A DNA stretch of 35,498 nucleotides from a virus. Position 1 is the first letter of the stretch, and every line of letters begins with the position of its first letter. The notes under the pieces were generated by a model. The model saw only the letters and a program-made list of their open reading frames with translations. It did no database searches and was not told the DNA's origin. The position numbers and the translations under genes are program-made. This document shows, one piece after another, positions 6,061 through 19,313 of the stretch. The stretch spans positions 1-35,498 of IMG/VR virus record IMGVR_UViG_3300032087_001262; one strand, 5' to 3'.

Positions 6061-6335
6061 GTAGTTCTATATCTATTTAAATAAGCCTGTAATAAATCCC
6101 TATAATCTCTTTTAGCACCTGATACAGTCTTGCCGTCATATATGTCGTGATGTCTTTTACATAACATAGCTACATTATTTATGTCGTACTTACTTGCTTT
6201 ATCTCTGCCACCCATACCAATACCTAATATGTGTGCTAGTTCTAGCCAGCTAGTGTTGCCACAATTTGGCCACTCACACGCGTTTCTAGCTCTTTTAAGG
6301 GCCTGTTCTCTTAGTTCTGATAGATTGTCCATCAT
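6057..6335 (-). CDS. HNH nuclease domain protein
   Basis: A 92-aa protein with a complete HNH/treble-clef signature: zinc ligands CEWPNC (C20, C25), the catalytic LELAHI (H35), a central NN (53-54) and CKRHHDIYDG (C59, H62-H63). Such compact HNH proteins in phages can be packaging-associated nickases, homing endonucleases or recombination nucleases. This one sits far from the terminase and outside any intron, at the end of the early cluster. A GAGGAGG site in the last codons of the SET gene precedes the tandem ATG-ATG start, with an ATGA overlap. Confidence 0.85.
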   Translation of the reverse strand: MMDNLSELREQALKRARNACEWPNCGNTSWLELAHILGIGMGGRDKASKYDINNVAMLCKRHHDIYDGKTVSGAKRDYRDLLQAYLNRYRTT

Positions 6336-6634
6336 TCCTCCTCTGGATTATAAAGTTCGTATTTAAGTGTAATTTCCTCGCCTGTAATTATTTCTACTAA
6401 TGTTCTTAATAAAAAAACTTTATTACCTTTTATTAATTCACAATTAGGATATTGACTATGGTTTATAAATCCACCTAGTGGTGTACGAATTACACCGTGT
6501 TGAAACAAATCATCAACTACGTGAGTAATACCTAACACTTTACCCTTAGCGATAGGACGTGTACTAAAGAGGCCCAAGCCTTCCACTTTGGACCTCTTTA
6601 TAGTTAATGATTTAGGTAATGGTTTATATTTCAT
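6332..6634 (-). CDS. SET-domain protein (putative protein lysine methyltransferase)
   Basis: A 100-aa compact SET domain. An N-terminal VEGLGLFSTRPIAKG is followed by GFINHSQYPNC (residues 55-65, the SAM-binding NHSxxPNC motif) and GEEITLKY (85-92, with the C-terminal Tyr). SET proteins transfer methyl groups from SAM to lysines; the phage target is unknown. There is no post-SET cysteine cluster. The start at 6634 (ATG, within GATGAAATATAA) overlaps the previous gene by 11 nt; a longer start at 6742 would add a sequence with no SET similarity. It ends in EEE. Confidence 0.8.
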   Translation of the reverse strand: MKYKPLPKSLTIKRSKVEGLGLFSTRPIAKGKVLGITHVVDDLFQHGVIRTPLGGFINHSQYPNCELIKGNKVFLLRTLVEIITGEEITLKYELYNPEEE

Positions 6635-8238: not shown

Positions 8239-8784
8239 TTATAATTCGTTGGTTAGATTCCACTCATCTGGTAAATCAGAGTTGTCCATCCACCAACTTT
8301 TTCTCCACTTTCCACTATGTCCACCGCATATAGCAGGGTCATTTGTAGAGCATACAAAGTCAGGGCTTTTGTCTGACTTCTTATTGTTTCTGTTATCGTA
8401 AACCATTTGGCCACAATAAGGGCATTTCAAATCGTCACGATATGCTTTCTTTTCTTCCAATTTATTAACTACTTTCTCTACTACATTAGATATATCTGAT
8501 ACAGTAACAACATCAGCAGTTTCTAACGTTGTTATCTTGTCTTCCAAAGACATTTGGTCAAAGTCATTTGGTATCTTTGCCTCTAAAGTACCTGATAATT
8601 TTTCTAACATTCCAAGATATTTATCCAATTGCTCATCATTCCATTGTTCTTTATTGTTAGGGAACTTCTTAAGCTTGGCATAATCATTGGCTTTACCTAT
8701 AACGTTTCTACGTATGTCTGCATCTTTAATATGTTCAGTCATAGTAGCAACTGTTTGTGCTATGAATTGTATATCTTGTGCCAT
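8239..8784 (-). CDS. Zinc-finger protein next to the Rad52-like annealing protein
   Basis: A 181-aa protein. The N-terminal 120 residues are helical and charged. The C-terminus is a zinc ribbon: CPYCGQMVYD, then VCSTNDPAICGGHSGKWRKSWW. Zinc-ribbon proteins with this aromatic-basic tail often accompany phage recombination genes. The start overlaps the stop of the Rad52-like gene by one base, so the two are made together and probably work together on single-stranded DNA. The exact role is unknown. Confidence 0.65.
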   Translation of the reverse strand: MAQDIQFIAQTVATMTEHIKDADIRRNVIGKANDYAKLKKFPNNKEQWNDEQLDKYLGMLEKLSGTLEAKIPNDFDQMSLEDKITTLETADVVTVSDISNVVEKVVNKLEEKKAYRDDLKCPYCGQMVYDNRNNKKSDKSPDFVCSTNDPAICGGHSGKWRKSWWMDNSDLPDEWNLTNEL

Positions 8785-9389
8785 TAGAAAGGTGGCTCTT
8801 CTGTTTTAACCTCTGCTTTAGGTTCTTCAGTGTTACCACCATCAGCATTGAGTATGTCATCCATAATAGAGTTCATACGTTCAATGTCTTCTTTAGTAGG
8901 TTTGTTTTCTTTCTTACGCATATCAACTTTAGTAACCTCAACCATTGCGTCTTTCTCAGCCATCTCTTGTGTATAGCCATCAGGTGCAATAGTTGTAGCT
9001 TCTTCTTCTGATTGTACAGAACCAGACCATAGTTCTACACCTAAGCCAAACCTCATACAAGCTCTCTTGAATGCGTCTGACTCTGCGTCTTTAAGATTAC
9101 TTCCATCGTTAAACTTATCACTGTTTAACTTGAAAGTATCAACATCGCCAAAGCCAACGTAGCTACCCATATCTTCAATAGTTATGGTGCCTTTAGCTCC
9201 GACAATTCTTTTCTCTCCTTTGTGCATACCATATACAGGTTCACACTCCCAGGAATATGACACACCACTATCACGTAGTCTTTCTACATAGTTAGCGTGT
9301 GGTACATAATCCCCAAACTTTCCAGCTGGTGCTTTTCGCACTAAGTTTTCTGGAAATGGGGATAGCAATTTCTTGGTATCTTTTACCAT
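8784..9389 (-). CDS. Rad52/Rad22-like single-strand annealing recombinase
   Basis: The 201-aa protein (start at 9389 chosen because AAGGAG lies at proper distance; ATGs at 9392 and 9404 are too near or overlap it) carries the Rad52-fold signature. This includes YVERLRDSGVSYSWECEPVY, the GTITIEDMGSYVGFGDVD strand region and LKDAESDAFKRACMRFGLG near residue 115. Rad52-like proteins form rings that anneal complementary single strands in phage recombination. The C-terminus is acidic and ends in EEPPF, a tail type used elsewhere to contact single-strand binding proteins. Confidence 0.85.
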   Translation of the reverse strand: MVKDTKKLLSPFPENLVRKAPAGKFGDYVPHANYVERLRDSGVSYSWECEPVYGMHKGEKRIVGAKGTITIEDMGSYVGFGDVDTFKLNSDKFNDGSNLKDAESDAFKRACMRFGLGVELWSGSVQSEEEATTIAPDGYTQEMAEKDAMVEVTKVDMRKKENKPTKEDIERMNSIMDDILNADGGNTEEPKAEVKTEEPPF

Positions 9390-9414
9390 CATTCTCCTTT
9401 TCATATTCGTTGTA

Positions 9415-9444
9415 GGCCTTAATAACCCAAGAGGGGATAAGGCC
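9415..9444 (-). ncRNA. Intercistronic hairpin, family member H1
   Basis: On the minus strand the element is GGCCTTA-TC-CCC-TCTT-GGG-TTA-T-TAAGGCC. The outer 7-bp and inner 3-bp stems are perfect and are separated by an internal loop. It follows the stop of the small gene at 9451 after the bases GCAGAC and precedes the Shine-Dalgarno site of the Rad52-like gene. H1 deviates from the family core (TT...TTC) by one base on each side. Confidence 0.65.
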
Positions 9445-9450
9445 GTCTGC

Positions 9451-9609
9451 TTATTCTTTTGTTAAAACTTCTAATTGAGTTACGCCACGTTCGATAGGTA
9501 TAAACCTTATTCCTAGTTCGTCATTAATAACGAAGTAAGGTTGACTACCTATGCCAGCGTATTCAATTGCTATTGTCTTAACAGTAGAATTGACATTCTC
9601 TCTTGACAT
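9451..9609 (-). CDS. Hypothetical protein, 52 aa, probably leaderless
   Basis: A compact, beta-rich peptide (MSRENVNSTVKTIAIEYAGI, then PYFVINDELGIRFIPIERG). No Shine-Dalgarno site precedes it; instead a strong promoter-like sequence ends 9 nt before the ATG. It is followed by hairpin H1 and then the Rad52-like gene, so it heads that operon. No family recognised. Confidence 0.55.
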   Translation of the reverse strand: MSRENVNSTVKTIAIEYAGIGSQPYFVINDELGIRFIPIERGVTQLEVLTKE

Positions 9610-9618
9610 ATCTATCCA

Positions 9619-9647
9619 ATTATACTAGACATTATCTAAATTAACAA
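9619..9647 (-). promoter_or_regulatory. Promoter of the recombination operon
   Basis: Read on the minus strand: TTGTTA (9647-9642), 17 nt spacer, TATAAT (9624-9619), then 9 nt to the ATG at 9609. The expected start site lies 1-3 nt before the ATG, nearly leaderless. It overlaps the 3' end of the metallophosphoesterase gene. It is the best matching -35/-10 pair seen in the window. Confidence 0.65.
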
Positions 9648-10689
9648 GGTATTCAGCTGTTACTCCTGCACCATCTTTGCAAAATAACAACCATTGACAG
9701 GGTCTGCCCATACTTGCTAACTGTTCTAACGCATATGTGTTATAGCTTTCAGTACTTCCATTAACCCATAATCTAATACCATTAAGGTACATTGTTGTAG
9801 GTGTATGAAAATGTCCTGCTATAGCCATATCAAATGGCTCCATCATACCGTTAGCTGCTAATGTTTTCCAGCCTTGTAACTTTTTACCGAAACCATACCA
9901 GGGAAATCCATTAAATCCTCTGACATTATCTCCGTGCCATAATAGAAACTTACAATTATCTCCAAGGTCTGCAATATCAAACCAATGATTATCGTTAGAA
10001 CTATCAGGTATTGTCCATTTAATTCTTTTTTCGTCTCTATATATCATTGACATTATGCTTCCAAGCATTCTGTCTGCGTTACTATCTGGGTGATAATCTT
10101 TTCTTGACCTTCCTCCAAGATGTCCGTGATTACCAATAACCCAATGAACATCTACTTCTGCAAAGTTTGCTAATAAGATATCAAAGAATTGCGTCATTAT
10201 TCTAGGACCGTCTATCGTCACTTGTTTGTATAGTGAACTATCAATTAAGTGTGATTGTCCTGGAAATATTAATTCTCCTTCTATAATATCTCCTACTGCA
10301 AACACTGCACATTTGTTTACTGGGTGTGATTTACGTTGTAGATTTGCTAACTCAACTATTTTATGTGCGTATTCAATTACTCTTGCTTCAGCAATCTCTG
10401 AATTATATTCAGGTGTTACTTTAGCTAATTGTATATCAGATAAAACAGCTATTGCTATTTCTTCTTTCTTTGAACTTTTACTTAAGATAGGTTTAGGTAT
10501 TTTAGGTTTATCCCAAGTCCTTAAGTTAGTATCTACTGCTTGATATACTGCGTCTACCATATCTGCTTTTTTGTTTTTAGCTTTATCAAGTTGCTTTAAA
10601 AGATTTAGGTTATCTTTTTTTAGGTCTTGAATTTGCTTTGACTCAGCTTCAGCAAGCATATCTTCTATGTTTATTTTTTTATTTGGCAT
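9625..10689 (-). CDS. Calcineurin-like metallophosphoesterase
   Basis: A 354-aa protein. After a charged helical N-terminus (residues 1-60) come the metallophosphoesterase motifs: LSDIQ (D85, with Gln where His is usual), VGDIIEG (GD 133-134), IGNHGH (186-190), WHGD (251-254) and AGHFH (291-295). Together these bind two metal ions and cleave phosphodiesters or phosphomonoesters. Related phage enzymes are thought to process nucleic acids or nucleotides. The DxQ in motif I deserves attention. It overlaps the preceding small gene by 11 nt. Confidence 0.85.
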   Translation of the reverse strand: MPNKKINIEDMLAEAESKQIQDLKKDNLNLLKQLDKAKNKKADMVDAVYQAVDTNLRTWDKPKIPKPILSKSSKKEEIAIAVLSDIQLAKVTPEYNSEIAEARVIEYAHKIVELANLQRKSHPVNKCAVFAVGDIIEGELIFPGQSHLIDSSLYKQVTIDGPRIMTQFFDILLANFAEVDVHWVIGNHGHLGGRSRKDYHPDSNADRMLGSIMSMIYRDEKRIKWTIPDSSNDNHWFDIADLGDNCKFLLWHGDNVRGFNGFPWYGFGKKLQGWKTLAANGMMEPFDMAIAGHFHTPTTMYLNGIRLWVNGSTESYNTYALEQLASMGRPCQWLLFCKDGAGVTAEYLVNLDNV

Positions 10690-10918
10690 TATATAACTTT
10701 TCTAAATAGTTAGTCATTGCCGTGTCAGATATTCTAATATCAAAATTGTCTTTCAATATTCTTGTTAAAGTATATGATTTCATTTTGACATTATCTTCTG
10801 TGATTCTTTTTTTAACTGCTTCCCAAAACTCAGCGGCTTCAGGAGTAATTCTACTTTCTACGAAATTACCCCTGGAACCGTACTGTGCTTCGTCCAACAG
10901 TTTATTTATGTCTACCAT
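10679..10918 (-). CDS. Small putative HTH-like protein, leaderless
   Basis: A 79-aa protein: VDINKLLDEAQYGSRGNFVE, ITPEAAEFWEAVKKR, then SYTLTRILKDNFDIRISDTA and MTNYLEKLY. The last 35 residues look like a helix-turn-helix in which RISDTAMTNYL would be the recognition part. Similar small proteins accompany phage metallophosphoesterases. There is no Shine-Dalgarno site; a -10 box ends exactly 7 nt before the ATG. Confidence 0.65.
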   Translation of the reverse strand: MVDINKLLDEAQYGSRGNFVESRITPEAAEFWEAVKKRITEDNVKMKSYTLTRILKDNFDIRISDTAMTNYLEKLYNAK

Positions 10919-10925
10919 ACAAAGT

Positions 10926-10931
10926 AGTATA
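10926..10931 (-). promoter_or_regulatory. -10 box (TATACT) of a leaderless promoter
   Basis: On the minus strand TATACT is followed by ACTTTGT (7 nt) and the ATG at 10918, so the mRNA should start at the initiation codon. A weak TTGTAT-like -35 lies 15 nt upstream. The spacing equals that at 1385 and 19301. Confidence 0.55.
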
Positions 10932-10966
10932 GCAGAATATAAATTAATACAAATGAATTGAAGAGA

Positions 10967-11029
10967 AAGGTTGGCACTTACCCTGGGAAAGGAGGACCAG
11001 ACCAGTCGCTAAACTGTGATGCCAACCTT
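10967..11029 (-). ncRNA. Long structured element between the VWA gene and the metallophosphoesterase operon
   Basis: A perfect 10-bp outer stem, AAGGTTGGCA (10967-10976) with TGCCAACCTT (11020-11029), encloses 43 nt with smaller helices (for example CAGT/ACTG around CGCTAA). On the minus strand it contains TTTCCC-A-GGGT near the 3' side, reminiscent of the core of the H family but with a one-base loop. It lies 8 nt after the VWA stop and is followed by a U-rich TTTCTCTTC. It could therefore be a terminator, an attenuator or a divergent family member (H2). Confidence 0.6.
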
Positions 11030-11036
11030 GCCCTTA

Positions 11037-12542
11037 TTATAACTGATTAAGTTCTAAAGCAAATTTCTTTACTTCATCTATATCAGCTAATCTAGTAATG
11101 CCAGACTTCCTCATAATCTGGTTACATTCTTTTAATAAGTTTGCACTGCTTGTATTATCTGCACCAAATACATACATATCTGATACCCATATACGTTTAG
11201 GTGCTTGTTGAGATAACCAACGTAGTGCTGGACCATCTACTAAGTTACCTCCACCTGTCCACTTATCTAAATATTCTTGATTAACACGTTTACCTTTGTC
11301 ACCAATAATACGTAATGAACCTACATCATAGCTATATCTTCTTTGTGTTTTGTTATTAGTTGAGTTATACATAGCTATTTTTACAGCAGGTAACATCTGC
11401 ATTATTTCTAAGATGTCATCACCAGTAAAGTGCATAGAACCTGATGCGTCTATTAAGATAGTACCACCATAAGTACGTTGTCTTTGTTTAAAGACTTTTT
11501 TATCTACGCACCATCTATTCATATACTTAGGATTAACACCGTAATCCATAGGCCTATACTCTCTACCACCTTTGATTTTACCTTGAAGGTTTACAGATAA
11601 TTCTGGTGTGTATATTTCCATACGACCCCATCTACCTGTCATATCATTGATGTCTGGTTCATAATTCATATCTGAATCTGCTAATAATGCAGCCATATCA
11701 TACTTACTTTGAAGCATAGATTCTTCTAATGTTTTGTTATCAGAGTCACTTTCGCCTTCAGTTTGTAATTTACTAACATTGCGATTAGCAGATTGTTTTT
11801 GTTTAGCAGCTTCTTTAGCTTTACGTACTGATTCATAAACCTGTTCGTCTGTTGGACGTTCGCTAAAATCATCACGTAATTTGCTAAGTTCTTTTGCTAC
11901 TTTACGAACCTTACGATAACTAACCATAGTTGCGTAAGTATTTCTATTCTGTAGAATATTTCTATAGAATTTATTAGCTCTATTTAAAGCCCAATCTAAT
12001 TGTGCTTTTCTATAACCAGTTAATTCTCCAGAGTCTTGCACTTCTTTACATAGTTTTAAGAAGTTTTTATATTCTGGATTGTTAGGTTCACGATTCCAGT
12101 AGTAATGATTATCATCTGTTACGTGCCACATCTTAGACATAAGATAAGTAATAAGTTCATATTCTGAAAACTTGTATATAGCTTCATAATCTAAACGTGT
12201 TACTTTATCTGGACACATAACCCAGTCTTTTATCTCTAATCCTTTGCGACCTAGTAAATAATTAATTCTTACTTCTTCGCAAACTTCTACAGAGAATGAG
12301 TCTTCGTTTTCACCAAGTTTACCTACAGTCATTGGTGACCATTTGACGTGACCTAGTTCGTGTCGTCTGATATATTTTGAGTGATTAATGCCACATTCTG
12401 TACATTCATTGTCTAAAGGTACGTGCATTTCTTTAGACATATTAGATGTACGTGGCTGGTCAGCGTCTTCAAAGATACGCCAACCAGCTTTACCAGATAC
12501 TATCTCTGGGAATGGTGCATTAACGTGATTATTCTTCCTCAT
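11037..12542 (-). CDS. VWA-domain protein with HExxH motif, partner of the MoxR-type ATPase
   Basis: A 501-aa protein. Near the N-terminus C47 and C50 precede RRHELGHVKW, an HExxH zinc motif at residues 61-65, with glutamates at 86-90 (VEVCEEVRIN) as possible third ligands. The middle (about 200-290) is charged and helical. The C-terminal 140 residues form a VWA domain with the metal site ILIDASGSM (D365-S369), TGGGN and VSDMYVFG. MoxR-VWA pairs act as chaperone-like remodelers or metal inserters, and CobS-CobT is a close analogue. The metallopeptidase-like HExxH fits a CobT/VWA type but could be structural. It overlaps the ATPase gene by 14 nt. Confidence 0.8.
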   Translation of the reverse strand: MRKNNHVNAPFPEIVSGKAGWRIFEDADQPRTSNMSKEMHVPLDNECTECGINHSKYIRRHELGHVKWSPMTVGKLGENEDSFSVEVCEEVRINYLLGRKGLEIKDWVMCPDKVTRLDYEAIYKFSEYELITYLMSKMWHVTDDNHYYWNREPNNPEYKNFLKLCKEVQDSGELTGYRKAQLDWALNRANKFYRNILQNRNTYATMVSYRKVRKVAKELSKLRDDFSERPTDEQVYESVRKAKEAAKQKQSANRNVSKLQTEGESDSDNKTLEESMLQSKYDMAALLADSDMNYEPDINDMTGRWGRMEIYTPELSVNLQGKIKGGREYRPMDYGVNPKYMNRWCVDKKVFKQRQRTYGGTILIDASGSMHFTGDDILEIMQMLPAVKIAMYNSTNNKTQRRYSYDVGSLRIIGDKGKRVNQEYLDKWTGGGNLVDGPALRWLSQQAPKRIWVSDMYVFGADNTSSANLLKECNQIMRKSGITRLADIDEVKKFALELNQL

Positions 12543-13272
12543 TAAGCTTGCCTAAATCTTGTAGGTTTGCTTCATCTGATAATGTAATCGCGTCAAGAAG
12601 TTCTTCACCTCTTTCACCAAACACTAACTGAGCTGCAATGTTCTTGTCAACCTGTTTAGCGGTTAAGTCAAAGAACTCTTTCCAGCTACGTATAGATAGT
12701 CTTGTGTCCATATCTTCTGATAAAGATGTATCAGATACGACTTTATGCCAAGACTTAGGAAAGATAGACAGTGCTTTAGGGTGAATTGTATCAACCTTAA
12801 TCTTCACTGGAAACCTATCTTTCAATGCCATAGGCAAGCTATCTGGTTCTGAGTTGGTTGTTGCTATAACAGTAAAGCCTTCTTTAGGTCTTACTGTTTC
12901 TTTGTTGTCATTGTTAAGTGTCAACTGTGCAATTGCTTTGTCATCCATAATGGCGTGTAAGAATGTCATTGCGTCTGGTGATGCGTGGTCAATCTCGTTG
13001 ACTACCAATCTACCACCTGTACGCCACGCTTGTATTGCAATACCATCGTGCCATTCAAAGCCACCTGCATTGTTAGGTTTATAAAAACCTTCCAAGTTTG
13101 CACTAGCTGTATCTTCTGTCATTGTTATCTGATACACATTAGGTTCTCCGTCCATATTGTATCCGATTTTATTTGTTGCAGCTGCATATGTTTTACCTGT
13201 ACCTGGTGGCCCATATAACAATATTCTGTCTGCGTTACCAATAGCGTTAGCTACTAAGTTCCAACAATCCAT
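12529..13272 (-). CDS. MoxR/CobS-type AAA+ ATPase
   Basis: A 247-aa protein with Walker A GPPGTGKT (21-28), a Walker B-like GGRLVVNEIDHASPD (86-99) where Asn91 replaces the usual Asp before Glu92, sensor 1 VIATTN (134-139) and an arginine-finger-like ALKDRF. It is short, with a small lid domain. Such ATPases form hexamers and remodel targets delivered by a VWA partner, here the next gene. It is coupled to the upstream gene by a TAATG overlap. It ends in NEEE. Confidence 0.85.
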   Translation of the reverse strand: MDCWNLVANAIGNADRILLYGPPGTGKTYAAATNKIGYNMDGEPNVYQITMTEDTASANLEGFYKPNNAGGFEWHDGIAIQAWRTGGRLVVNEIDHASPDAMTFLHAIMDDKAIAQLTLNNDNKETVRPKEGFTVIATTNSEPDSLPMALKDRFPVKIKVDTIHPKALSIFPKSWHKVVSDTSLSEDMDTRLSIRSWKEFFDLTAKQVDKNIAAQLVFGERGEELLDAITLSDEANLQDLGKLNEEE

Positions 13273-13583
13273 TAGATTGTCTCCTTTCTGTTAGGGATAT
13301 ATCTACAATAAATGCCTACATATCCATTATCTTTTTTACGTTGTTTAATTTCGAACTGACCTTTGTCTTTCAAGTGTCTGATATTTGATTGTGTCATACT
13401 CTCAATATTCTTTTTAACACCTGATATCCACTTATCAGATTCGCCAATTAAATACCACACTTCTGGTGTGGATAGTAAAGTTTGTACCTTTGCATCTGTT
13501 AGTAGTGTTGGTTGTTTACCGCTTCTACTTAAACCAGCTGCTGGTGGTTCTTCTCTAGTAATGTCATTGTTAACAATACCCAT
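13272..13583 (-). CDS. Hypothetical protein, possible winged helix, 103 aa
   Basis: Disordered N-terminus (NNDITREEPPAAGLSRSGKQ), then a helical part and a C-terminal IRHLKDKGQFEIKQRKKD followed by GYVGIYCRYIP. The HLKDKGQFEI...GYVGIYCRY pattern resembles a helix plus wing of winged-helix DNA-binding domains. A GAGGAGG site ends within the previous gene, giving TAATG coupling. It probably acts with the AAA/VWA pair; no function is assigned. Confidence 0.6.
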   Translation of the reverse strand: MGIVNNDITREEPPAAGLSRSGKQPTLLTDAKVQTLLSTPEVWYLIGESDKWISGVKKNIESMTQSNIRHLKDKGQFEIKQRKKDNGYVGIYCRYIPNRKETI

Positions 13584-14092
13584 TACTCCTCCTCTTGATT
13601 AGCCCAATTAGCTACGTCAGATATAAATGCGTCTGACTTTTCAATGAATTGATTCTCCATATCTAGATGTATCATATCTTTGTTAGCTACTAACAAGCAA
13701 GATATTGTTGTAGGTTCAGTATTAAACCATTGTCCAAATTGATTTCTATCCATAAGAAAACCATACATATCTTCTAATAACTTAGGTGTTAATTCTTCAC
13801 CGTGTTCATCTTGCATATGCTCTGTAATGCTTGGCCAAGTAGCTGCTACTTCCATTTTACGTGTATCATCTAGTTGTTTTGCTTGTGCAATTGCATTAAT
13901 CATTGACACATCATTGACAATATAAGTAAATATAATTACATCATTATCTTCTAACTCAGCCCAAGCTAATACATTATCTTCACTTTGTTCAGCAGTTTTG
14001 TTATGTTTATCTGCTTTATGATATGACATAGTTACTTCGTATTTATGTTGCGCCAATTTAGGTGCTTTTTGTATGTAAGCATTTCTACTCAC
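13583..14092 (-). CDS. Hypothetical protein, 169 aa (GTG start)
   Basis: The start is GTG at 14092 in a GTGA overlap with the previous stop, with AAAGGAG upstream. It is a mixed alpha/beta, acidic protein (SEDNVLAWAELEDNDVIIFT, then TYIVNDVSMINAIAQAKQLD) ending NQEEE. No family recognised. It sits directly before the possible winged-helix gene and the AAA/VWA pair and may belong to the same functional group. Confidence 0.65.
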   Translation of the reverse strand: MSRNAYIQKAPKLAQHKYEVTMSYHKADKHNKTAEQSEDNVLAWAELEDNDVIIFTYIVNDVSMINAIAQAKQLDDTRKMEVAATWPSITEHMQDEHGEELTPKLLEDMYGFLMDRNQFGQWFNTEPTTISCLLVANKDMIHLDMENQFIEKSDAFISDVANWANQEEE

Positions 14093-14289
14093 TGTTCTTC
14101 TCCTTTCAAATTTTTATCATATGCTTTATTAACTTGATGCTCTACAGCTTCAACTAACATAGCACACCATCCTTTGACTTTTTCATCAAGTCCTGAATAA
14201 TTATTCGCAGCATTTTTTAAATCATTAACAGTCCAGTTAATAACTTGTATAAGTTGCGAATGTGTCAAGCTCTCTAATTTGTCTTGCAT
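14089..14289 (-). CDS. Hypothetical protein, 66 aa
   Basis: Mostly helical (LESLTHSQLIQVINWTVNDL, then GWCAMLVEAVEHQVNKAYDK). It has an AAGGAG site before the ATG and hairpin H3 just upstream of that site. No family recognised. Confidence 0.6.
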   Translation of the reverse strand: MQDKLESLTHSQLIQVINWTVNDLKNAANNYSGLDEKVKGWCAMLVEAVEHQVNKAYDKNLKGEEQ

Positions 14290-14308
14290 ATTCTCCTTTC
14301 AATTAGAA

Positions 14309-14342
14309 GGGCTGGTATGAACCCAGAAGGGAAAACCAGCCC
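14309..14342 (-). ncRNA. Intercistronic hairpin, family member H3
   Basis: Minus strand: outer stem GGGCTGGT/ACCAGCCC (8 bp), then T-A, then TT-CCC-TTCT-GGG-TTC, with a single bulged T on the 3' side. It begins 5 nt after the stop of the gene at 14348 and ends 9 nt before the AAAGGAG site of the next gene. It is the clearest copy of the consensus. Confidence 0.75.
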
Positions 14343-14347
14343 GACTG

Positions 14348-14584
14348 TTACTTGTTATTTTTGATACGTTGTTTGTAAACGCGTTCATCAATAACTACAT
14401 TGTCTGTATCTTTAAATGTCTTTTGCTTTGGTGCATTCGTATCCCCATACGTTATTACTGTTTTACCAAATGCTCTTGACACTGCTATTACAGGCAAACT
14501 TTTATGACCTATTGTAATTAGTTCATCATCTTCTGTTACATCTTTGGCATATCTAGATACACCGTGACTACAAGCTGCTTGCAT
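14348..14584 (-). CDS. Hypothetical protein, 78 aa
   Basis: A beta-rich, possibly SH3-like peptide (DDELITIGHKSLPVIAVSRA, then GKTVITYGDTNAPKQKTF). One-base overlap (TAATG) with the YubB-like gene, whose last codons GAAGAAGAA provide the Shine-Dalgarno-like purines. No family recognised. Confidence 0.6.
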   Translation of the reverse strand: MQAACSHGVSRYAKDVTEDDELITIGHKSLPVIAVSRAFGKTVITYGDTNAPKQKTFKDTDNVVIDERVYKQRIKNNK

Positions 14585-15174
14585 TATTCTTCTTCTTGTA
14601 TTATTTCAACAGCAGCTCTATCAATAGATACACGTTGGTCGTCTAATGATTTAGCCCAACTATTATCTAGTTCAGCACGTTGTAATATTGGCATTGGATA
14701 ATTACTTAACCCAGCATTATCAAACTCAACATCCCAAACATTTTTAATAGTTAAGTTATATTTATTTGCTATATCATCAAGCAATAAAAATGGTTCACCC
14801 CAAGCTGACTCAAAGTTAAGTACTAATGTTGTTTTAGTTTCTTTAAGAATTTCTGTATTACAGTCACCCCATTTAGTACCCCAGTTTTTATATTGCCAAT
14901 CAATGCTATCCATAGCACCTGTTAATTTAAGTATTTTTGAATACTCTTCTTCTGTTACACCTGTTGGGTTGCCTTCTTTATCTTCACGCCACAATTTATA
15001 TCTTTTACCATCAATAGTTCTTGAACCACTATGTATACCATTAAATATATCTGGTGTGTCATTAACATTTGTCAATGATATTGTGTCGTCTTCATTTGTA
15101 ATTACTTTACGTAGTTCTTTTAAAGCTTCAGAACTACCTGTAATTTCTACTGTATTGTCTGTCCAATTTGGCAT
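14584..15174 (-). CDS. YubB-like ferredoxin-fold protein (DUF1281/Api92 type)
   Basis: A 196-aa protein that starts MPNWTDNTVEITGSSEALKE, the typical MPNWxxNxxxIxG opening. The hallmark WGTKWGDCN (about residues 98-106) and FESAWGEPF (about 123-131) follow. The family has a ferredoxin-like fold, is common on plasmids and phages, and its function is unknown. A GAGGAG site precedes the ATG. Confidence 0.8.
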   Translation of the reverse strand: MPNWTDNTVEITGSSEALKELRKVITNEDDTISLTNVNDTPDIFNGIHSGSRTIDGKRYKLWREDKEGNPTGVTEEEYSKILKLTGAMDSIDWQYKNWGTKWGDCNTEILKETKTTLVLNFESAWGEPFLLLDDIANKYNLTIKNVWDVEFDNAGLSNYPMPILQRAELDNSWAKSLDDQRVSIDRAAVEIIQEEE

Positions 15175-15187
15175 ATATATCTCCTCT

Positions 15188-15403
15188 CTAAAATACCGTT
15201 ACGAACATATCACATTCCTTGCAGTAATATTCATTATTATTTGTATCATCTACAATTAATTTTTTACCACAATTTTCGTGAAAATAATCTTCCATCATAG
15301 GATTTAAATTAATATTTGTTTCAAGATTTCTTAAGTCTTGTTTAATTTTATAATCCCAATAGATATCTTTAACTTTCCATTTAAGATATTTAAATAATTT
15401 CAA
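15188..15403 (-). CDS. Small zinc-ribbon protein with TTG start
   Basis: A 71-aa protein. The codon at 15403 is TTG, preceded by AAAGGAGG with a 4-nt gap. Basic aromatic helix (LFKYLKWKVKDIYWDYKIKQ), then MMEDYFHENCGKK and YYCKECDMF, a one-sided zinc ribbon with C...CxxC plus His. The rare start codon and the long structured leader directly upstream suggest tight translational control. An internal ATG start in MMEDYF is an alternative. Confidence 0.6.
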   Translation of the reverse strand: MKLFKYLKWKVKDIYWDYKIKQDLRNLETNINLNPMMEDYFHENCGKKLIVDDTNNNEYYCKECDMFVTVF

Positions 15404-15416
15404 CCTACCTCCTTTC

Positions 15417-15562
15417 TATAGATAGCTTGTAACACACAATTTCTGTCGCTTCTATGAAGCTCTTTTCTTTTAACTGTTTCAGTATATTATGTGCTACAAG
15501 CTACCTACGTTCAGTCACTGGTGCAACAGGGCAGTTAAACCAGTTCTTAATAGTAAGTAGCT
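15417..15562 (-). ncRNA. Structured RNA, second (downstream) copy of a tandem pair
   Basis: Plus-strand coordinates: TAGCTTGTA (15423-15431) pairs with TACAAGCTA (15495-15503), and CTACCTAC (15501-15508) pairs with GTAAGTAG (15553-15560). Internal hairpins are ACTGGT/ACCAGT in one arm and GCTTC/GAAGC in the other. The helix words are shared with the first copy, while the internal hairpins have other sequences. It ends 5 nt before the Shine-Dalgarno site of the TTG-start gene. The minus-strand orientation is inferred from the promoter at 15714 and the gene direction. Confidence 0.65.
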
Positions 15563-15592
15563 TCATTCTTTTACTTTAGGCCATCTATATTT

Positions 15593-15708
15593 TATAGATA
15601 GCTTGCAACATACAAATGATGCGGGAGTAAGGACACATCATCAATATATTGCAAGCTACCTACAGTTGAATAAGGAAGTGTTGAGAGATAAACACTGCTG
15701 TAAGTAGC
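15593..15708 (-). ncRNA. Structured RNA, first (promoter-proximal) copy of a tandem pair
   Basis: Same frame as its neighbour: TAGCTTGCA pairs with TGCAAGCTA and CTACCTAC with GTAAGTAG (15701-15707 region). A long arm is closed by ATGATGCG/CGCATCAT-type pairing and the other arm by AGTGTT/AACACT. A link hairpin ATCTATA-TTT-TATAGAT (15583-15599) joins the two copies. On the minus strand the RNA would begin with GCTACTTAC right at the predicted start site of the promoter at 15714. Confidence 0.65.
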
Positions 15709-15713
15709 CTGTC

Positions 15714-15719
15714 ATTATA
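15714..15719 (-). promoter_or_regulatory. -10 box (TATAAT) for the tandem structured RNA
   Basis: Minus strand TATAAT followed by GACAGG and then GCTACTTAC, the first strand of the RNA helix. Transcription would start at about 15708-15706. No good -35 box is present; the region upstream is the end of the gene at 15735. Confidence 0.5.
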
Positions 15720-15734
15720 CTGGGCTGTATAATA

Positions 15735-16076
15735 TTATTCTTCTTCTAATTTTTGTTCCCATTCCTCTCTAGTAACACCAGTTAAAGCAATCTTTAATGA
15801 TTTAAATAATCCTAATATTTCATTAAAGTATTGGTCTTCAAGAGTGCTACTTCCTTTACCTTCAGTATAAAAGGTTACATCAAATAAGTCACCCCAATTA
15901 TGTATAATTGTAATACGCATATCTTCTTTGTGAAAATTTTTAAACTCTAAAGTTAAACCACCACGTTGATATTTTGCACCTTCTTGATGTTCAGTTATTT
16001 TGCATTGATTGTAATCAAAACCTACTTCTTCTGCATATGCTTTGATTGCGTCTGCACTATCTGTGTACATTCTCAT
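15735..16076 (-). CDS. Hypothetical protein, 113 aa
   Basis: Alpha/beta protein (SADAIKAYAEEVGFDYNQCK, then GGLTLEFKNFHKEDMRITII and GDLFDVTFYTEGKG) ending KLEEE. ATGA overlap with the upstream gene. No family recognised. It is the last gene before the tandem RNA. Confidence 0.6.
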   Translation of the reverse strand: MRMYTDSADAIKAYAEEVGFDYNQCKITEHQEGAKYQRGGLTLEFKNFHKEDMRITIIHNWGDLFDVTFYTEGKGSSTLEDQYFNEILGLFKSLKIALTGVTREEWEQKLEEE

Positions 16077-16297
16077 TCAAGTATCTCCTTTGCTAATTCA
16101 TTTATTTCCATCATCATTGTGACAACTTCATCTGGAACATCTTCATTTTCATTGACAAATTCAGTAAATCCTTTACGAATATGGTCATTAGCCATTGACA
16201 TAGCTAAAAATTTATTCATAAATCTATCATTATTTTTACTTAATTCATCAACAATAAGTGTTATCACTGATAATATATATTTAATTTGTTCTTCCAC
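16073..16297 (-). CDS. Hypothetical helical protein, 74 aa (GTG start)
   Basis: Starts with GTG at 16297 in a TAGTG overlap, with GAGGAGG in the last codons of the upstream gene. The sequence is helical and acidic (IKYILSVITLIVDELSKNND, then VPDEVVTMMMEINELAKEIL). No family recognised; it may be a partner of its neighbours. Confidence 0.6.
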   Translation of the reverse strand: MEEQIKYILSVITLIVDELSKNNDRFMNKFLAMSMANDHIRKGFTEFVNENEDVPDEVVTMMMEINELAKEILE

Positions 16298-16647
16298 TAT
16301 TCCTCCTCTATAGCAGTATCTAGTAAGTATTGTGTTAATTCATCAAATGTTTCGCTAAGACATTCTTCAGTAACTGTTTCTGTATAAGGTAATGTATCAC
16401 TACCTGAATACTCAACATACTCATCTTGAAATGGATAATCATATGTTATTTCATATCCATCTTCGCTTTTAATTACATCCCATTTCAATGAGATATTATC
16501 TAATGTCATTAAAAACTTAATACCGCCCAGTTTATTAACTTCCCCTGGTGTTTTAATAATTACATCAGATACTGCGTGGTTCTTTAATACATTAGGTATC
16601 ATATCTAATATATCTCCAGCCACTTCAGTTGTTATTTCACTACTCAT
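16297..16647 (-). CDS. Hypothetical acidic protein, 116 aa
   Basis: Start at 16647 (MSSEITTEV) chosen because AAAGGAG lies 5 nt upstream; an upstream ATG at 16677 would run through hairpin H4. The protein is beta-rich in the middle (LGGIKFLMTLDNISLKWDVI, then GYEITYDYPF) and ends AIEEE. No family recognised. Confidence 0.6.
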   Translation of the reverse strand: MSSEITTEVAGDILDMIPNVLKNHAVSDVIIKTPGEVNKLGGIKFLMTLDNISLKWDVIKSEDGYEITYDYPFQDEYVEYSGSDTLPYTETVTEECLSETFDELTQYLLDTAIEEE

Positions 16648-16670
16648 TATTCTCCTTTCAACGCGTAGTA

Positions 16671-16702
16671 GGCCCATTCGAACCCGTGTGGGAAGAAGGG
16701 CC
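16671..16702 (-). ncRNA. Intercistronic hairpin, family member H4
   Basis: Minus strand: GGCCC + TTC + TT + CCC-ACAC-GGG + TTC + GAA + bulged T + GGGCC. The TTC/GAA helix extends the outer stem. The element begins 8 nt after the stop of the gene at 16710, preceded by AGAC as in H1, and ends 12 nt before the AAAGGAG of the next gene. The GGGTTCGAAT stretch resembles a tRNA T-arm by chance. Confidence 0.75.
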
Positions 16703-16709
16703 GTCTAAA

Positions 16710-17126
16710 TTAGTTGAACTTAAACAAGTTCTTTATTATATTTTTATATGTCCATTTACTTTGTCTATCGTGTATATCTTTTTTAGATAGCCATAGTAAT
16801 TCTTGCCATTCATATTTAATTAATCTAGGATTTCTAAACAATATAATTAATAACGTTACAATGTTTACACGTTCCCAACGTGGATGTCCAAACCAAAAGC
16901 CTGGTTCTCTACCACTATGAGATGTTGAACCATAGTTGTTATATCCATAGATTAAATTAAATACTTTATGTGCGTGTTTATGACATAATATAATTTCATT
17001 ATCATTTTCATTTTCCATTGCTAAGTTGTCTTTAAAATCGCCATATGAACCGAACCATTGTAACCATAAGTTACCTTCATTATGTTCATCGGCTTCAACT
17101 TTACAATTTCTATAATTACACAACAT
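16710..17126 (-). CDS. Hypothetical protein with possible zinc site, 138 aa
   Basis: N-terminal LCNYRNCKVEADEH and LCHKHAHKVF (about residue 68) suggest a CC/CHH zinc site. The C-terminal half is aromatic and basic (PGFWFGHPRWERVNIVTLLI, then LRNP-like and WLSKKDIHDRQSKW). The IVTLLIILF stretch is short for a membrane helix. The start ATG lies in GGAGGAATATG inside the previous gene (11-nt overlap). No family recognised. Confidence 0.6.
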   Translation of the reverse strand: MLCNYRNCKVEADEHNEGNLWLQWFGSYGDFKDNLAMENENDNEIILCHKHAHKVFNLIYGYNNYGSTSHSGREPGFWFGHPRWERVNIVTLLIILFRNPRLIKYEWQELLWLSKKDIHDRQSKWTYKNIIKNLFKFN

Positions 17127-17349
17127 ATTCCTCCTCTATTTGTGATAGTTGATATTGTTCGCAAGATACGCATAACAATTTAGATAGTCTTGTTATACGT
17201 TCATTAAGCATTTCTATTTCACAATACTCTACAAATGTAGACTCTTTATGTCCACATCTAAAAGGTATATCAACCATTTGATAATGTTTATGTGTATGTA
17301 TATGATACTCACCATTGTATGGATTAAGTATTTGTTGTCTATTAGCCAT
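17116..17349 (-). CDS. Small CxxC/CGH zinc-binding protein
   Basis: A 77-aa protein: HIHTHKHYQ, then IPFRCGHKESTFVEYC and LLCVSCEQYQ, which together give a plausible zinc-binding treble clef. AAGGAG lies before the ATG. The last codons IEEEYVV contain the GAGGAGG site for the next gene. It is the first gene after the terminator at 17394, so a promoter must lie close by (TACAAT 22 nt upstream is a weak candidate). Confidence 0.6.
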   Translation of the reverse strand: MANRQQILNPYNGEYHIHTHKHYQMVDIPFRCGHKESTFVEYCEIEMLNERITRLSKLLCVSCEQYQLSQIEEEYVV

Positions 17350-17393
17350 ATCTCTCCTTCGTCTTTAATTGTAGCTAATCTATGCTTTGCAAT

Positions 17394-17440
17394 AAAAAAA
17401 AGGCTATAGAGTGCCATAAGGGGCTGACACTCTACAACCT
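17394..17440 (-). terminator. Rho-independent terminator (minus strand)
   Basis: Arms at 17401-17413 and 17428-17440 pair with two mismatches (AGGTTGTAGAGTG with CACTCTATAGCCT on the minus strand), followed by eight T on that strand (17401-17394). It lies 10 nt after the stop of the zinc-ribbon/OB-like gene. Confidence 0.85.
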
Positions 17441-17449
17441 AGTTAAGCT

Positions 17450-18001
17450 TTAGTAAGTAAAATCTCCTTCAGCTTTTGTTGGTGCATTCCATATATCTGT
17501 AATGACTAACTCATTTTGATATACAGTTTGTCCATTCTTTTGATAGTTATTAGCTTGAACTTTACATTCAACCATTAATCTACCAAATGGTCTTTGCTTA
17601 CCTTCAGTATGATTTGCTTCAAAGAACTGATTAATTTTCTCAACAAGTTCTTCTCCATAAGCTACTGCATTCAATGATGCTTGCTTATTATCTCTACCAT
17701 CAAAGATAAATTTAAGACCATTCATAAATTTATCTCCAGTTTTTGATGCAACTCCAACATTTGGACTTCCATCTTTTGTTAATGTAGTCAACGCACCAGT
17801 TGCTACGATTGTATTCACTTTGTCAAGTGAGTTTGGATAATTTGATAACACCGTATCTCCTTTCATTATATCCATTTTTTTATTGGCGTTCCAGCGAACC
17901 CAGGCGGGAAGCGGAACGTCAAAGCTTAAATCCCAGCACTCATTACATAAAGTACCGTTTAGTGTTTTAAATTTATGTTCCTTTTTACAATTTGGACACA
18001 T
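17450..18001 (-). CDS. Zinc-ribbon plus OB-like protein, possibly two proteins from one frame
   Basis: The 183-aa frame starts at an ATG after AAAGGAGATAAT. Residues 1-26 form a zinc ribbon (MCPNCKKEHK...LCNECWDL). After a linker (FDVPLPAWVRWNANKK) comes a beta-rich C-terminal part with NTIVATGALTTLTKDGSPNV and RLMVECKVQANNY, as in single-strand-binding or OB-fold proteins. In the linker lies hairpin H5, followed by TATAAT, AAAGGAG and a GTG at 17851. The C-terminal domain may thus also be made alone (17450-17851, 133 aa). The OB assignment is tentative. A terminator follows. Confidence 0.65.
   Translation of the reverse strand: MCPNCKKEHKFKTLNGTLCNECWDLSFDVPLPAWVRWNANKKMDIMKGDTVLSNYPNSLDKVNTIVATGALTTLTKDGSPNVGVASKTGDKFMNGLKFIFDGRDNKQASLNAVAYGEELVEKINQFFEANHTEGKQRPFGRLMVECKVQANNYQKNGQTVYQNELVITDIWNAPTKAEGDFTY
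17851..17863 (-). promoter_or_regulatory. Internal Shine-Dalgarno site and GTG start
   Basis: Minus strand: AAAGGAG (17863-17857), 5-nt spacer ATACG, GTG (17851-17849), in frame with the full gene. The same ATGAAAGGAGATA string precedes the full-length start at 18001, so the site is as strong as the primary one. Just upstream is GATATAATG, which also offers a -10-like TATAAT. Confidence 0.55.
17885..17920 (-). ncRNA. Hairpin family member H5, inside a coding frame
   Basis: Minus strand: GACGTTCC/GGAACGCC (8 bp with one G-U), then GC/GC, TT-CCC-GCCT-GGG-TTC and the bulged T. It is identical to the H3 and H4 core. Unlike the other copies it is translated if the full frame is used (linker residues VPLPAWVRW). 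It lies 21 nt before the internal AAAGGAG site. Confidence 0.7.
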
Positions 18002-18026
18002 ATTATCTCCTTTCATAAACACTTAT

Positions 18027-18086
18027 GAGAACTTGACACAACTTCAAAACCATAGCGTTATATGGTGTTGCTCCTTTCAAGTTCTC
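18027..18086 (-). promoter_or_regulatory. Structured leader of the zinc-ribbon/OB-like gene
   Basis: A perfect 10-bp stem, GAGAACTTGA (18027-18036) with TCAAGTTCTC (18077-18086), encloses CAAC/GTTG and ACCATA/TATGGT helices. On the minus strand an AAAGGAG sits just inside the outer stem, and a 16-codon frame (ATG at about 18052) follows and ends at the Shine-Dalgarno site of the zinc-ribbon gene. It could be a translational regulator or a small leader-peptide unit. Confidence 0.55.
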
Positions 18087-18099
18087 TTAACTATTTACA

Positions 18100-18294
18100 T
18101 TATTTATTTTGGTCGTCTAACTCTGCAAAATAACTAAAAGCGTCATTACGTAAAATCATTTGTTCTTTATTAATTAATTTATTTAAGCCGCCTTCACTAA
18201 TATCTTTAATTTGTTGTTCACTTATTACACCTAAACTTGCTAAATTATTAACTGCTTTGTGTAATATCTCTATTTTATCTAATAACTTTTCCAT
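18100..18294 (-). CDS. Hypothetical helical protein, 64 aa
   Basis: Helical (LLDKIEILHKAVNNLASLGV, then ISEQQIKDISEGGLNKLINK). The ATG overlaps the stop of the 51-aa gene by one base (TAATG). It may include a small HTH (GVISEQQIKDISEGGLNKLI), but this is uncertain. No family recognised. Confidence 0.6.
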   Translation of the reverse strand: MEKLLDKIEILHKAVNNLASLGVISEQQIKDISEGGLNKLINKEQMILRNDAFSYFAELDDQNK

Positions 18295-18449
18295 TAGTAA
18301 TTCCCTTCTGCTTTATCATTTAACATTAATTCGTTACAATATTTTGCCATTGATATATAATCTGTATTCATATCATCAAACTCTATGTTTAATGGATGAT
18401 AATAATTATCAAAAGCACTAATCATTTGTTTTAATTCATATACTTTCAT
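18294..18449 (-). CDS. Hypothetical protein, 51 aa
   Basis: The peptide begins MKVYELKQMISAFDNYYHPL and contains IEFDDMNTDYISMAKYCNEL. An AAGGAGG site lies 5 nt before the ATG. TAATG overlap with the next gene. Upstream lies a leader segment shared with the gene at 18621. No family recognised. Confidence 0.6.
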   Translation of the reverse strand: MKVYELKQMISAFDNYYHPLNIEFDDMNTDYISMAKYCNELMLNDKAEGNY

Positions 18450-18470
18450 TTATCCTCCTTAATAAATAAT

Positions 18471-18486
18471 ATATAAATAATCATAG
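18471..18486 (-). repeat. 16-bp leader repeat, copy 1
   Basis: ATATAAATAATCATAG occurs exactly here and at 18840-18855, each time shortly before a Shine-Dalgarno site and 13-14 nt after a GGGGG block that closes a C/G hairpin. On the minus strand it contains TATGAT followed by TATTTATAT. It is probably a duplicated promoter or leader unit. Confidence 0.6.
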
Positions 18487-18497
18487 TGGAAAGATAA

Positions 18498-18529
18498 TCC
18501 CCCAAAGGACCGAAAGGGGAAGTCGGGGA
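18498..18529 (-). ncRNA. Divergent hairpin, possible H-family member H6
   Basis: TCCCC (18498-18502) pairs with GGGGA (18525-18529). Inside, a CC-GAAA-GG apical stem lies at 18510-18517. On the minus strand the 5' side reads GAC-TT-CCCC, close to the family core, but the apical stem is only 2 bp and the bulged T is not clear. It lies between the gene at 18621 and the 51-aa gene. Confidence 0.45.
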
Positions 18530-18567
18530 AGACATCGTCTTTATTTTGCTACCAGTAATGCCAAGAT

Positions 18568-18607
18568 AAAAAAAACCTAAGGGCTAGCTATCTAACTAAC
18601 CCCTAGG
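18568..18607 (-). terminator. Rho-independent terminator (minus strand)
   Basis: Minus strand: CCTAGGGG-TTAG ... CTA-GCCCTTAGG followed by eight T (18575-18568). The stem has one mismatch. It lies 13 nt after the stop of the first minus-strand gene. Confidence 0.85.
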
Positions 18608-18620
18608 CTTCTTTATTATA

Positions 18621-18818
18621 TTAAACTAATGGTCTTAAACTTACTCCATTATTCTCAAGCAAATCTAATACACAATCTCTATGAACATTTAATGAACGAA
18701 AACTTGGGGAATAATCTCCATTATCATTCTTACTCCAGCTTTTAACAACTGGAAATCTACCCACTAATTTACCTTCATCATTCTTAGCTATCTCATTAGC
18801 ACATAATTGACAATTCAT
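18621..18818 (-). CDS. Small zinc-ribbon protein, first gene of the minus-strand cluster
   Basis: A 65-aa protein beginning MNCQLCANEIAKND and ending SFRSLNVHRDCVLDLLENNG: CxxC plus HxxC zinc ligands, as in small phage treble-clef proteins. Start at 18818 chosen from AAAGGAG 5 nt upstream; an ATG at 18875 would extend it through the leader repeat. It has its own terminator, so it may be expressed early and separately. Confidence 0.65.
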   Translation of the reverse strand: MNCQLCANEIAKNDEGKLVGRFPVVKSWSKNDNGDYSPSFRSLNVHRDCVLDLLENNGVSLRPLV

Positions 18819-18839
18819 ATTAACTCCTTTCATAACATA

Positions 18840-18855
18840 ATATAAATAATCATAG
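18840..18855 (-). repeat. 16-bp leader repeat, copy 2
   Basis: Second exact copy of the 16-mer at 18471-18486. Here the preceding hairpin is CCCC (18870-18873) with GGGG (18887-18890). The order hairpin, GGGGG, 13-14 nt, repeat, Shine-Dalgarno site is the same at both places. Confidence 0.6.
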
Positions 18856-18875
18856 ATAGATATATATACCCCCAT

Positions 18876-19313
18876 TTAAACAAACAGGGGATGTAAGCAA
18901 TGACATTTTTTTTTATTATATTTAATAACTGTTATCTGGAAGTAATCTAGTCCATATAACTTCATATTGTCTTACATTACTACATATGGACCTTTGACTA
19001 GCACATCTTAACTTAAGGTCCTTTTATTTTAAACGTATGTAGTAAAAAATATGTTGGTAATCTGTCTGGATACTGTATGGTGGCTATTTAGGGCGTAGCG
19101 GGCTATACAGAAATAGTCAATGTTTGATTGAAGTTTTTCTAAAGTTCTTGAGTACTCAGTTTGCGTTTCTACTGTACTGTATTACCAGTCCTGAGCTTTC
19201 TGCCTCCCGATGGCACCTTTACTTGTGACTATTTACTAACCTTCAATGTTTGTAATTTAACTTAATATATCATATAATTTAATCTATGCAACAATCTATG
19301 TATAATTAGTTTT
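18876..19313. other. Non-coding divergent region with many inverted repeats
   Basis: No gene is seen between the divergent clusters. A hairpin combines ACTACATA (18979-18986)/TATGTAGT (19036-19043) and GGACCTT (18988-18994)/AAGGTCC (19015-19021), the latter followed by TTTT. A second structured block has AAATAGTCA (19111-19119)/TGACTATTT (19226-19234) enclosing CTCAG/CTGAG (19155, 19191) and TGCC/GGCA (19201, 19212). TGGTAAT (19055)/ATTACCA (19181) and TTGAAG (19128)/CTTCAA (19241) cross it. The direct repeat TCAATGTTTG occurs at 19117 and 19243. Possible roles are a regulatory RNA, an origin or a packaging start site. Confidence 0.55.
19301..19306 (+). promoter_or_regulatory. -10 box (TATAAT) of a leaderless late promoter
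   Basis: Perfect TATAAT followed by exactly 7 nt (TAGTTTT) and the terminase ATG at 19314. No Shine-Dalgarno site is present. Same arrangement as at 1385. Confidence 0.65.

Follow-up and report, generated by a model that had tools for sequence, protein, structure and literature searches.

The IMG/VR virus record IMGVR_UViG_3300032087_001262 (35,498 bases, 33.6% G+C; analysed over its whole length and called the window below) belongs to a little-known, marine, uncultured group of phages, and the minus strand of its early-gene region carries four hairpins, e1 to e4, that combine a common tip with unrelated stems.

Four hairpins with a common tip

Read directly from the minus strand of the window and then folded, the hairpins resolve into the following parts, from 5' to 3': GGCCUU-A-UC-CCC-UCUU-GGG-UUA-U-(U)-AAGGCC in e1 (9444-9415); GGGCUGGU-U-UU-CCC-UUCU-GGG-UUC-A-(U)-ACCAGCCC in e2 (14342-14309); GGCCC-UUC-UU-CCC-ACAC-GGG-UUC-GAA-(U)-GGGCC in e3 (16702-16671); and CGUUCC-GC-UU-CCC-GCCU-GGG-UUC-GC-(U)-GGAACG in e4 (17918-17887). 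All four have in common the tip UUCCC-N4-GGGUU(C/A) and, on the 3' strand, one bulged U; the outer stems are unrelated. An original prediction, made from the letters of the window alone, had placed four minus-strand elements of this architecture at these sites, and each was recovered as such on reading and folding; the outer stem of eight pairs that it gave to e4, however, proved to be six contiguous pairs and an A.C mismatch. It had also described three of the elements as directly following a stop codon and all as lying shortly upstream of AAAGGAG. Indeed, e1, e2 and e3 start 6-9 nucleotides (nt) past a stop codon, and AAAGGAG is found downstream of each of the four, with the Shine-Dalgarno sequence outside the hairpin in every window copy. 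The term intercistronic is accurate for e1, e2 and e3 but not for e4, which an open frame encloses in the window as well as in the related loci L002, L005 and L010. The coordinates of these and other features are collected in Table 1.

Table 1. Positions of the hairpins and surrounding features in the window.
Feature	Position	Strand	Details
e1	9415..9444	minus	Hairpin GGCCUUAUCCCCUCUUGGGUUAUUAAGGCC; 6 nt past the stop of open reading frame (ORF) 9609-9451, ahead of the single-strand annealing protein (SSAP) gene
e2	14309..14342	minus	Hairpin GGGCUGGUUUUCCCUUCUGGGUUCAUACCAGCCC; past the stop of ORF 14584-14348
e3	16671..16702	minus	Hairpin GGCCCUUCUUCCCACACGGGUUCGAAUGGGCC; 7-9 nt past the stop of ORF 17126-16710
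e4	17887..17918	minus	Hairpin CGUUCCGCUUCCCGCCUGGGUUCGCUGGAACG; within open frame 18001-17450
Possible divergent member, marginal	18496..18531	minus	Model R2, E=0.023 (window alone), 0.39 (larger search)
SSAP gene	8784..9389	minus	Downstream of e1; phrog_3290, E=1.8e-10
Shine-Dalgarno AAAGGAG of SSAP gene	9394..9400	minus	Sequence
66-amino-acid (aa) protein gene	14089..14289	minus	Downstream of e2; function unassigned
116-aa protein gene	16297..16647	minus	Downstream of e3; function unassigned
183-aa frame	17450..18001	minus	Zinc-ribbon-like N-terminus and SSB-like domain; e4 in linker
Internal Shine-Dalgarno AAAGGAG	17857..17863	minus	3' of e4; GTG start 17851-17849
Early genes	~18.9 to 6 kb	minus	SSB-like protein, AAA ATPase, exonuclease (phrog_284), SSAP
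Plus-strand genes	~19.3-35.1 kb	plus	Terminase included (phrog_38, E=2e-64)

No T-run follows any of the four hairpins, as the original prediction had remarked, and on this ground they were rejected as intrinsic terminators. Two other minus-strand hairpins of the window (18568-18614 and 17400-17440) do have T-runs and are likely intrinsic terminators inside the early region. Comparison with Rfam, which the prediction had proposed, returned no family at the gathering threshold anywhere in the window, and the interval 17300-19320 gave chance matches only.

Covariation and recurrence in related viruses

Covariance models were built solely on two nearly ungapped alignments. The first, A2, comprises seven sequences (the four of the window and three from close relatives), is ungapped over 32 columns and yielded model R1, with which 154 related viral loci, the window and the additional contig L158 (2.18 Mb in total) were searched on both strands by cmsearch. 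The 45 matches listed at E<=5 all map to the transcribed strand, which is the minus strand in the window and L158. Nearly all fall at the e1-e4 sites of close relatives (L001-L005, L010, L081-L088); weak hits occupy the e1 site in L014/L093, L024/L118 and L089, and L158 has a single match. Members outside the model were found at E=1.9e-6 (e4 of L010), 2.1e-6 (e1 of L088), 9.9e-6 (e3 of L010), 1.2e-5 (e3 of L005) and 6e-4 (e1 of L010). A descriptor consisting of the tip and at least six outer pairs, counted identically in real and dinucleotide-shuffled sequences, gave 68 matches in 15 real loci, whereas the shuffles averaged 0.25 and never exceeded 3.

The second model, R2, rests on the 16 sequences of alignment A5 and was applied to 32 complete virus records, with matches at E<=0.2 in 11 of them, always on the early-gene strand except for two palindromic echoes, and never in late genes. 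Most related genomes hold two to six copies. Among the 21 genomes of sister lineages there was one marginal match (E=0.058, in record G030, which is among the 11) and none in the others of these lineages.

Seven of the eight outer pairs in A2 change on both sides, and the three apical pairs are invariant; in A5 all eight outer pairs change on both sides, with pairing percentages that are inflated because members from the wider clade were partly selected for having paired arms. Support free of that selection comes only from the model searches and from comparisons of equivalent sites. In the latter, the outer helix of e1, GGCCUU/AAGGCC, becomes GGGCCC/GGGCCC in L089; the outer pairs of e2, GGGCUGGU/ACCAGCCC, become GGGCUGUU/AACAGCCC in L278, where the 66-aa gene lies downstream as in the window; and an inner pair of e4 changes from G-C to A-U in L005. 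Equivalent e1 hairpins are present in L001, L084, L088, L010 and L089. The covariance search that the original prediction had proposed turned up additional copies in equivalent gaps, and these show compensatory changes; both the outer stems described as unlike in sequence but paired and the recurrent family with constant core and covarying stems are supported. The core called invariant is so within the closest relatives, but not in L005 and L010 (UCC/GGG) or in the wider clade (UUUCCC-N3/4-GGGA). Because the tips are alike, stem changes come in matched pairs and the hairpins recur in relatives, e1-e4 are, on this comparative evidence, real RNA elements, better supported than could be known from the window alone.

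Hairpins of the wider group

A folded-motif scan found the same tip on other stems in L008, L009, L012, L014, L016, L017, L024 and L158/L286. The architecture in the wider clade consists of an outer stem, UUUCCC-N3/4-GGGA and a longer 3' linker, often in three to five copies per genome; the e1 hairpins of L009, L014 and L016 contain CUUCGG. Beyond the phage group, two pattern scans of viral_contigs gave outside matches that lacked the family architecture on inspection; the scans gained one new contig, L158/L286.

Some hairpin, of unrelated sequence, occupies the e1 and e2 junctions in nearly all relatives; upstream of the SSAP gene in particular, a hairpin lies just before the Shine-Dalgarno sequence in nearly all of 68 distinct relatives, and the sequences differ. 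In relatives, the e1, e2 and e3 junctions are richer in structure than most others (fraction at z<-2 of 0.64, 0.78 and 0.67, respectively, versus 0.15-0.47). This enrichment and the other hairpins of sister lineages at the same junctions indicate that hairpins at the e1-e3 junctions are a group-wide habit and that the tip is particular to each lineage.

Several relatives have structures of other kinds. In one sister lineage (L095, L103, L106, L114/L115), a C(UAAC)G tip is carried, upstream of the SSAP gene and elsewhere between cistrons, on wholly different stems; the hairpins of L095 precede gene starts 2579, 3019, 3546 and 11273, and at least three copies share the tip. In L033, L035 and L080, several early-gene gaps per genome, the one upstream of the SSAP gene included, contain stems of ~20 base pairs (bp) that are interrupted in the middle by a single mismatch, either pyrimidine or A.C, and resemble RNase III substrates. 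L007 has two branched gap structures, before gene starts 3984 and 4628, with GUCGUUCCGAC-N-AGGGC...GCCC in common.

Of two intervals that the original prediction offered as divergent members, 18498-18529 gave a marginal match only (E=0.02-0.39), and 10967-11029 was rejected because its structure is branched and matches no model; the latter, on the minus strand between the genes for a 501-aa and a 79-aa protein, has the outer helix GGUUGGCA.../...UGCCAACC. A second conserved element occupies minus-strand positions 18026-18086, upstream of the zinc-ribbon/SSB-side genes, with a covarying outer stem around ACACCA, a covarying hairpin and GGUnnnnAAG; it recurs in L002, L003, L004, L007, L008, L012, L014, L016, L018 and L029, has no Rfam match and is possibly a new structured RNA. 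A 331-nt gap includes two strong minus-strand hairpins at 15500-15657 (-30.1 and -21.5 kcal/mol) whose architecture is unlike that of e1-e4.

Genome, host and the frame containing e4

Neither megablast nor tblastn with the 501-aa protein matched an annotated phage. The SSAP gene product matches Rad52_Rad22 at E=2.6e-4, slightly above the Pfam cut-off. An 84-aa protein encoded at 6332-6586 on the minus strand has a partial SET-domain match (PF00856, E=1.6e-9), which is unusual in a phage. ARAGORN found no tRNAs in the window or in 12 relatives; tRNA-like 3' halves with a T-arm and acceptor (for example CCTGGGTTCGATTCCCAGCACGTCCAC) precede positions 6544 of L092, 4776 of L096 and 4958 of L118, and ARAGORN calls none of them a tRNA. 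A close relative of the window phage, L297 (PBPX01000048.1), is a contig of 54 kb assigned by binning to the metagenome-assembled genome 'Actinomycetota bacterium isolate RS345'; it carries the same set of elements and an exonuclease gene whose product is 93% identical to that of the window. Among annotated phages, those with the best relatives of the exonuclease have actinobacterial hosts. This, together with the binning, which is no proof by itself, makes an actinobacterial host likely.

The frame that contains e4 runs through the hairpin without a stop, and its CxxC...CxxC segment continues in frame into the SSB-like domain, which begins at 17851, in the window as in L002, L005 and L010. 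Four of the seven homologues match the SSB domain (PF00436; E=7.7e-4 at best), and there is also a match to phrog_44. AAAGGAG and then ATG or GTG follow e4 inside the same frame; hence the SSB-like part may also be made on its own, giving two products, of 183 aa and 133 aa, from one frame.

Proposed role in early mRNA

A clear start lies downstream of 31 elements. The distance from the end of the element to this start is 10-33 nt in 25 of them, which leaves the Shine-Dalgarno sequence free, and 49-68 nt in the other six; many elements have a stop codon 0-9 nt upstream. This placement fits a cistron boundary and is compatible with either a 5' or a 3' role. Our preferred interpretation, to which we give a probability of roughly 45%, is that the elements are cis-acting hairpins of early (replication/recombination) mRNA that would mark boundaries of stability or processing, perhaps read by a factor that recognises tip and bulge. 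The family joins a GC-rich, freely varying outer helix to the tip UU(C/U)CC-N4-GGG, and only the 3' strand has additional nucleotides left unpaired (the bulged U and C/A in the window). As the long early polycistron is transcribed, such a hairpin would fold between genes, outside the downstream ribosome-binding site, and would shield the 5' end of the downstream mRNA, the 3' end of the upstream mRNA or both, with the outcome that SSB, SSAP and other early genes would acquire separate mRNA lifetimes. The constancy of tip and bulge suggests that a protein or nuclease would recognise them.

Several observations weigh against this interpretation. A plain stability hairpin has no need of a conserved core and bulge; scans of the early proteins with Pfam and PHROGs yielded no candidate RNA-binding protein, and no nuclease for the role was identified; the pairing counts of A5 are inflated; and e4 lies within a translated frame, so that each ribosome reading the upstream frame would unfold it. 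The gene downstream of e3 was considered as a motif-specific partner and rejected because it is also present in a lineage that carries other hairpins.

A tip and bulge that stay constant while the stems differ completely, the position just upstream of Shine-Dalgarno sites and the private tips of sister lineages at the same junctions, as expected if binding specificity drifts, would also suit translational operators, at which a phage RNA-binding protein (possibly an uncharacterised small early protein or the SSB-like protein itself) would bind the UUCCC-N4-GGG tip and 3' bulge and tune translation of the next gene. We consider operators somewhat unlikely, as the scans found no RNA-binding domain in the early proteins, the Shine-Dalgarno sequence is not within the hairpin and some copies are 49-68 nt from any start. 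Cleavage at the 3'-strand bulge by host RNase III or another endonuclease, separating cistrons as in T7 early mRNA, would account for intercistronic hairpins that are irregular, occur several times in an early operon and repeatedly show an asymmetry of the 3' strand, and the centrally mismatched ~20-bp stems of L033, L080 and L035 lie at the same junctions. The window helices, however, have ~12-14 pairs including U.U, which is at or under the usual minimum for RNase III, and that enzyme does not demand a constant tip; we regard such processing as decidedly unlikely.

A still less probable reading is that of passive insulators: any stable hairpin would block read-through or re-initiation and leave the ribosome-binding site accessible, with the tip inherited from duplicated copies. 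It draws on the unrelated hairpins at the e1 and e2 junctions of nearly all relatives and on the structural enrichment of the three junctions, but inheritance without selection on the tip does not account for stems that are wholly replaced while the tip is kept. Intergenic inverted repeats of phages can be DNA-binding sites, as proposed for the cluster K repeats discussed below (PMC3203893), and e1-e4 might similarly act in DNA, as protein-binding repeats or mobile REP-like palindromes. This is most improbable, since the elements are strictly oriented with transcription, the bulge is asymmetric, and the arms differ between copies yet stay complementary at sites that are conserved rather than mobile. 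Mobile palindromes of the REP/BIME type in particular are dispersed, repeat their stem sequence with a GTAG foot and are associated with a RAYT transposase. The hairpins do not conform to this type: each copy has its own stem and its place is conserved between phages; no transposase was found among the early proteins scanned; and on the opposite strand e1 and e3 have a GTAG-like foot, but e2 and e4 do not.

A more novel reading, speculative and in our estimation unlikely, is that each sublineage possesses its own multi-copy set of hairpins between cistrons with a private tip, and that this set evolves together with a dedicated RNA-binding protein or nuclease by which the whole early operon would be coordinated. 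The private tips would be UUCCC-N4-GGGUUC with a bulged U, UUUCCC-N4-GGGA, C(UAAC)G, and long stems with one central mismatch; if so, they would constitute an RNA recognition code not described before. Since the tip changes between sister lineages while hairpins persist at the same junctions, the phage group is a natural experiment on which part of a hairpin is read, and by what. With this family, a marine phage group that is uncultured gains an RNA element supported by covariation.

Comparison with known systems

The RNase III signals of T7 early mRNA are irregular hairpins between early genes, and the product of T4 gene 32 is the T4 SSB. The window hairpins are likewise irregular and lie between early genes, but they are shorter than the T7 signals and have a constant apical core. 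The intergenic hairpins of the T4 type have the form (X)2-8 CUUCGG (Y)2-8 (Tuerk et al. 1988, as described in PMC8948821), and one of them stabilises gene 32 mRNA, according to the account in the same source (PMC8948821, citing Tuerk 1988 and Gorski 1985). Like these, the window hairpins are multi-copy and predominantly intergenic, with a constant tip and variable complementary stems, and e4 precedes an SSB-like gene, the stabilised T4 mRNA being that of an SSB. Unlike these, they have variable tetraloops (UCUU, UUCU, ACAC, GCCU) closed by CCC/GGG rather than C(UUCG)G, and a conserved bulge on the 3' strand. As the defining C(UUCG)G loop is absent, they are not members of the T4 CUUCGG class, although by analogy they may work similarly.

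Cluster K mycobacteriophages contain Start Associated Sequences (SAS) and Extended SAS (ESAS) (PMC3203893), with counterparts in Microbacterium phages of clusters EF and EG (PMC7302621). Like the window hairpins, SAS and ESAS are multi-copy, lie upstream of start codons in the non-structural half of the genome, are kept with the same genes across phages, differ in consensus between subclusters and have no assigned function; their phages are actinobacterial, as the window phage probably is. SAS is a 13-bp sequence at the ribosome-binding site, GGGATAGGAGCCC, in place of which the window has GAAAAGGAGAATG, GAAAGGAGAATATG and GAAAGGAGAATAATG. ESAS consists of 17-bp inverted repeats whose arms have a sequence consensus and whose pairing as RNA is not supported, according to its authors (PMC3203893), whereas the arms of the window hairpins pair without a consensus and share the tip alone. 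The closest systems in form are thus the T4-type CUUCGG hairpins, and the closest in setting are SAS/ESAS and the Microbacterium phage motifs: the T4-style intergenic hairpin, with its constant tip and free stem, is matched in phages that probably infect actinobacteria by one whose tip is different.

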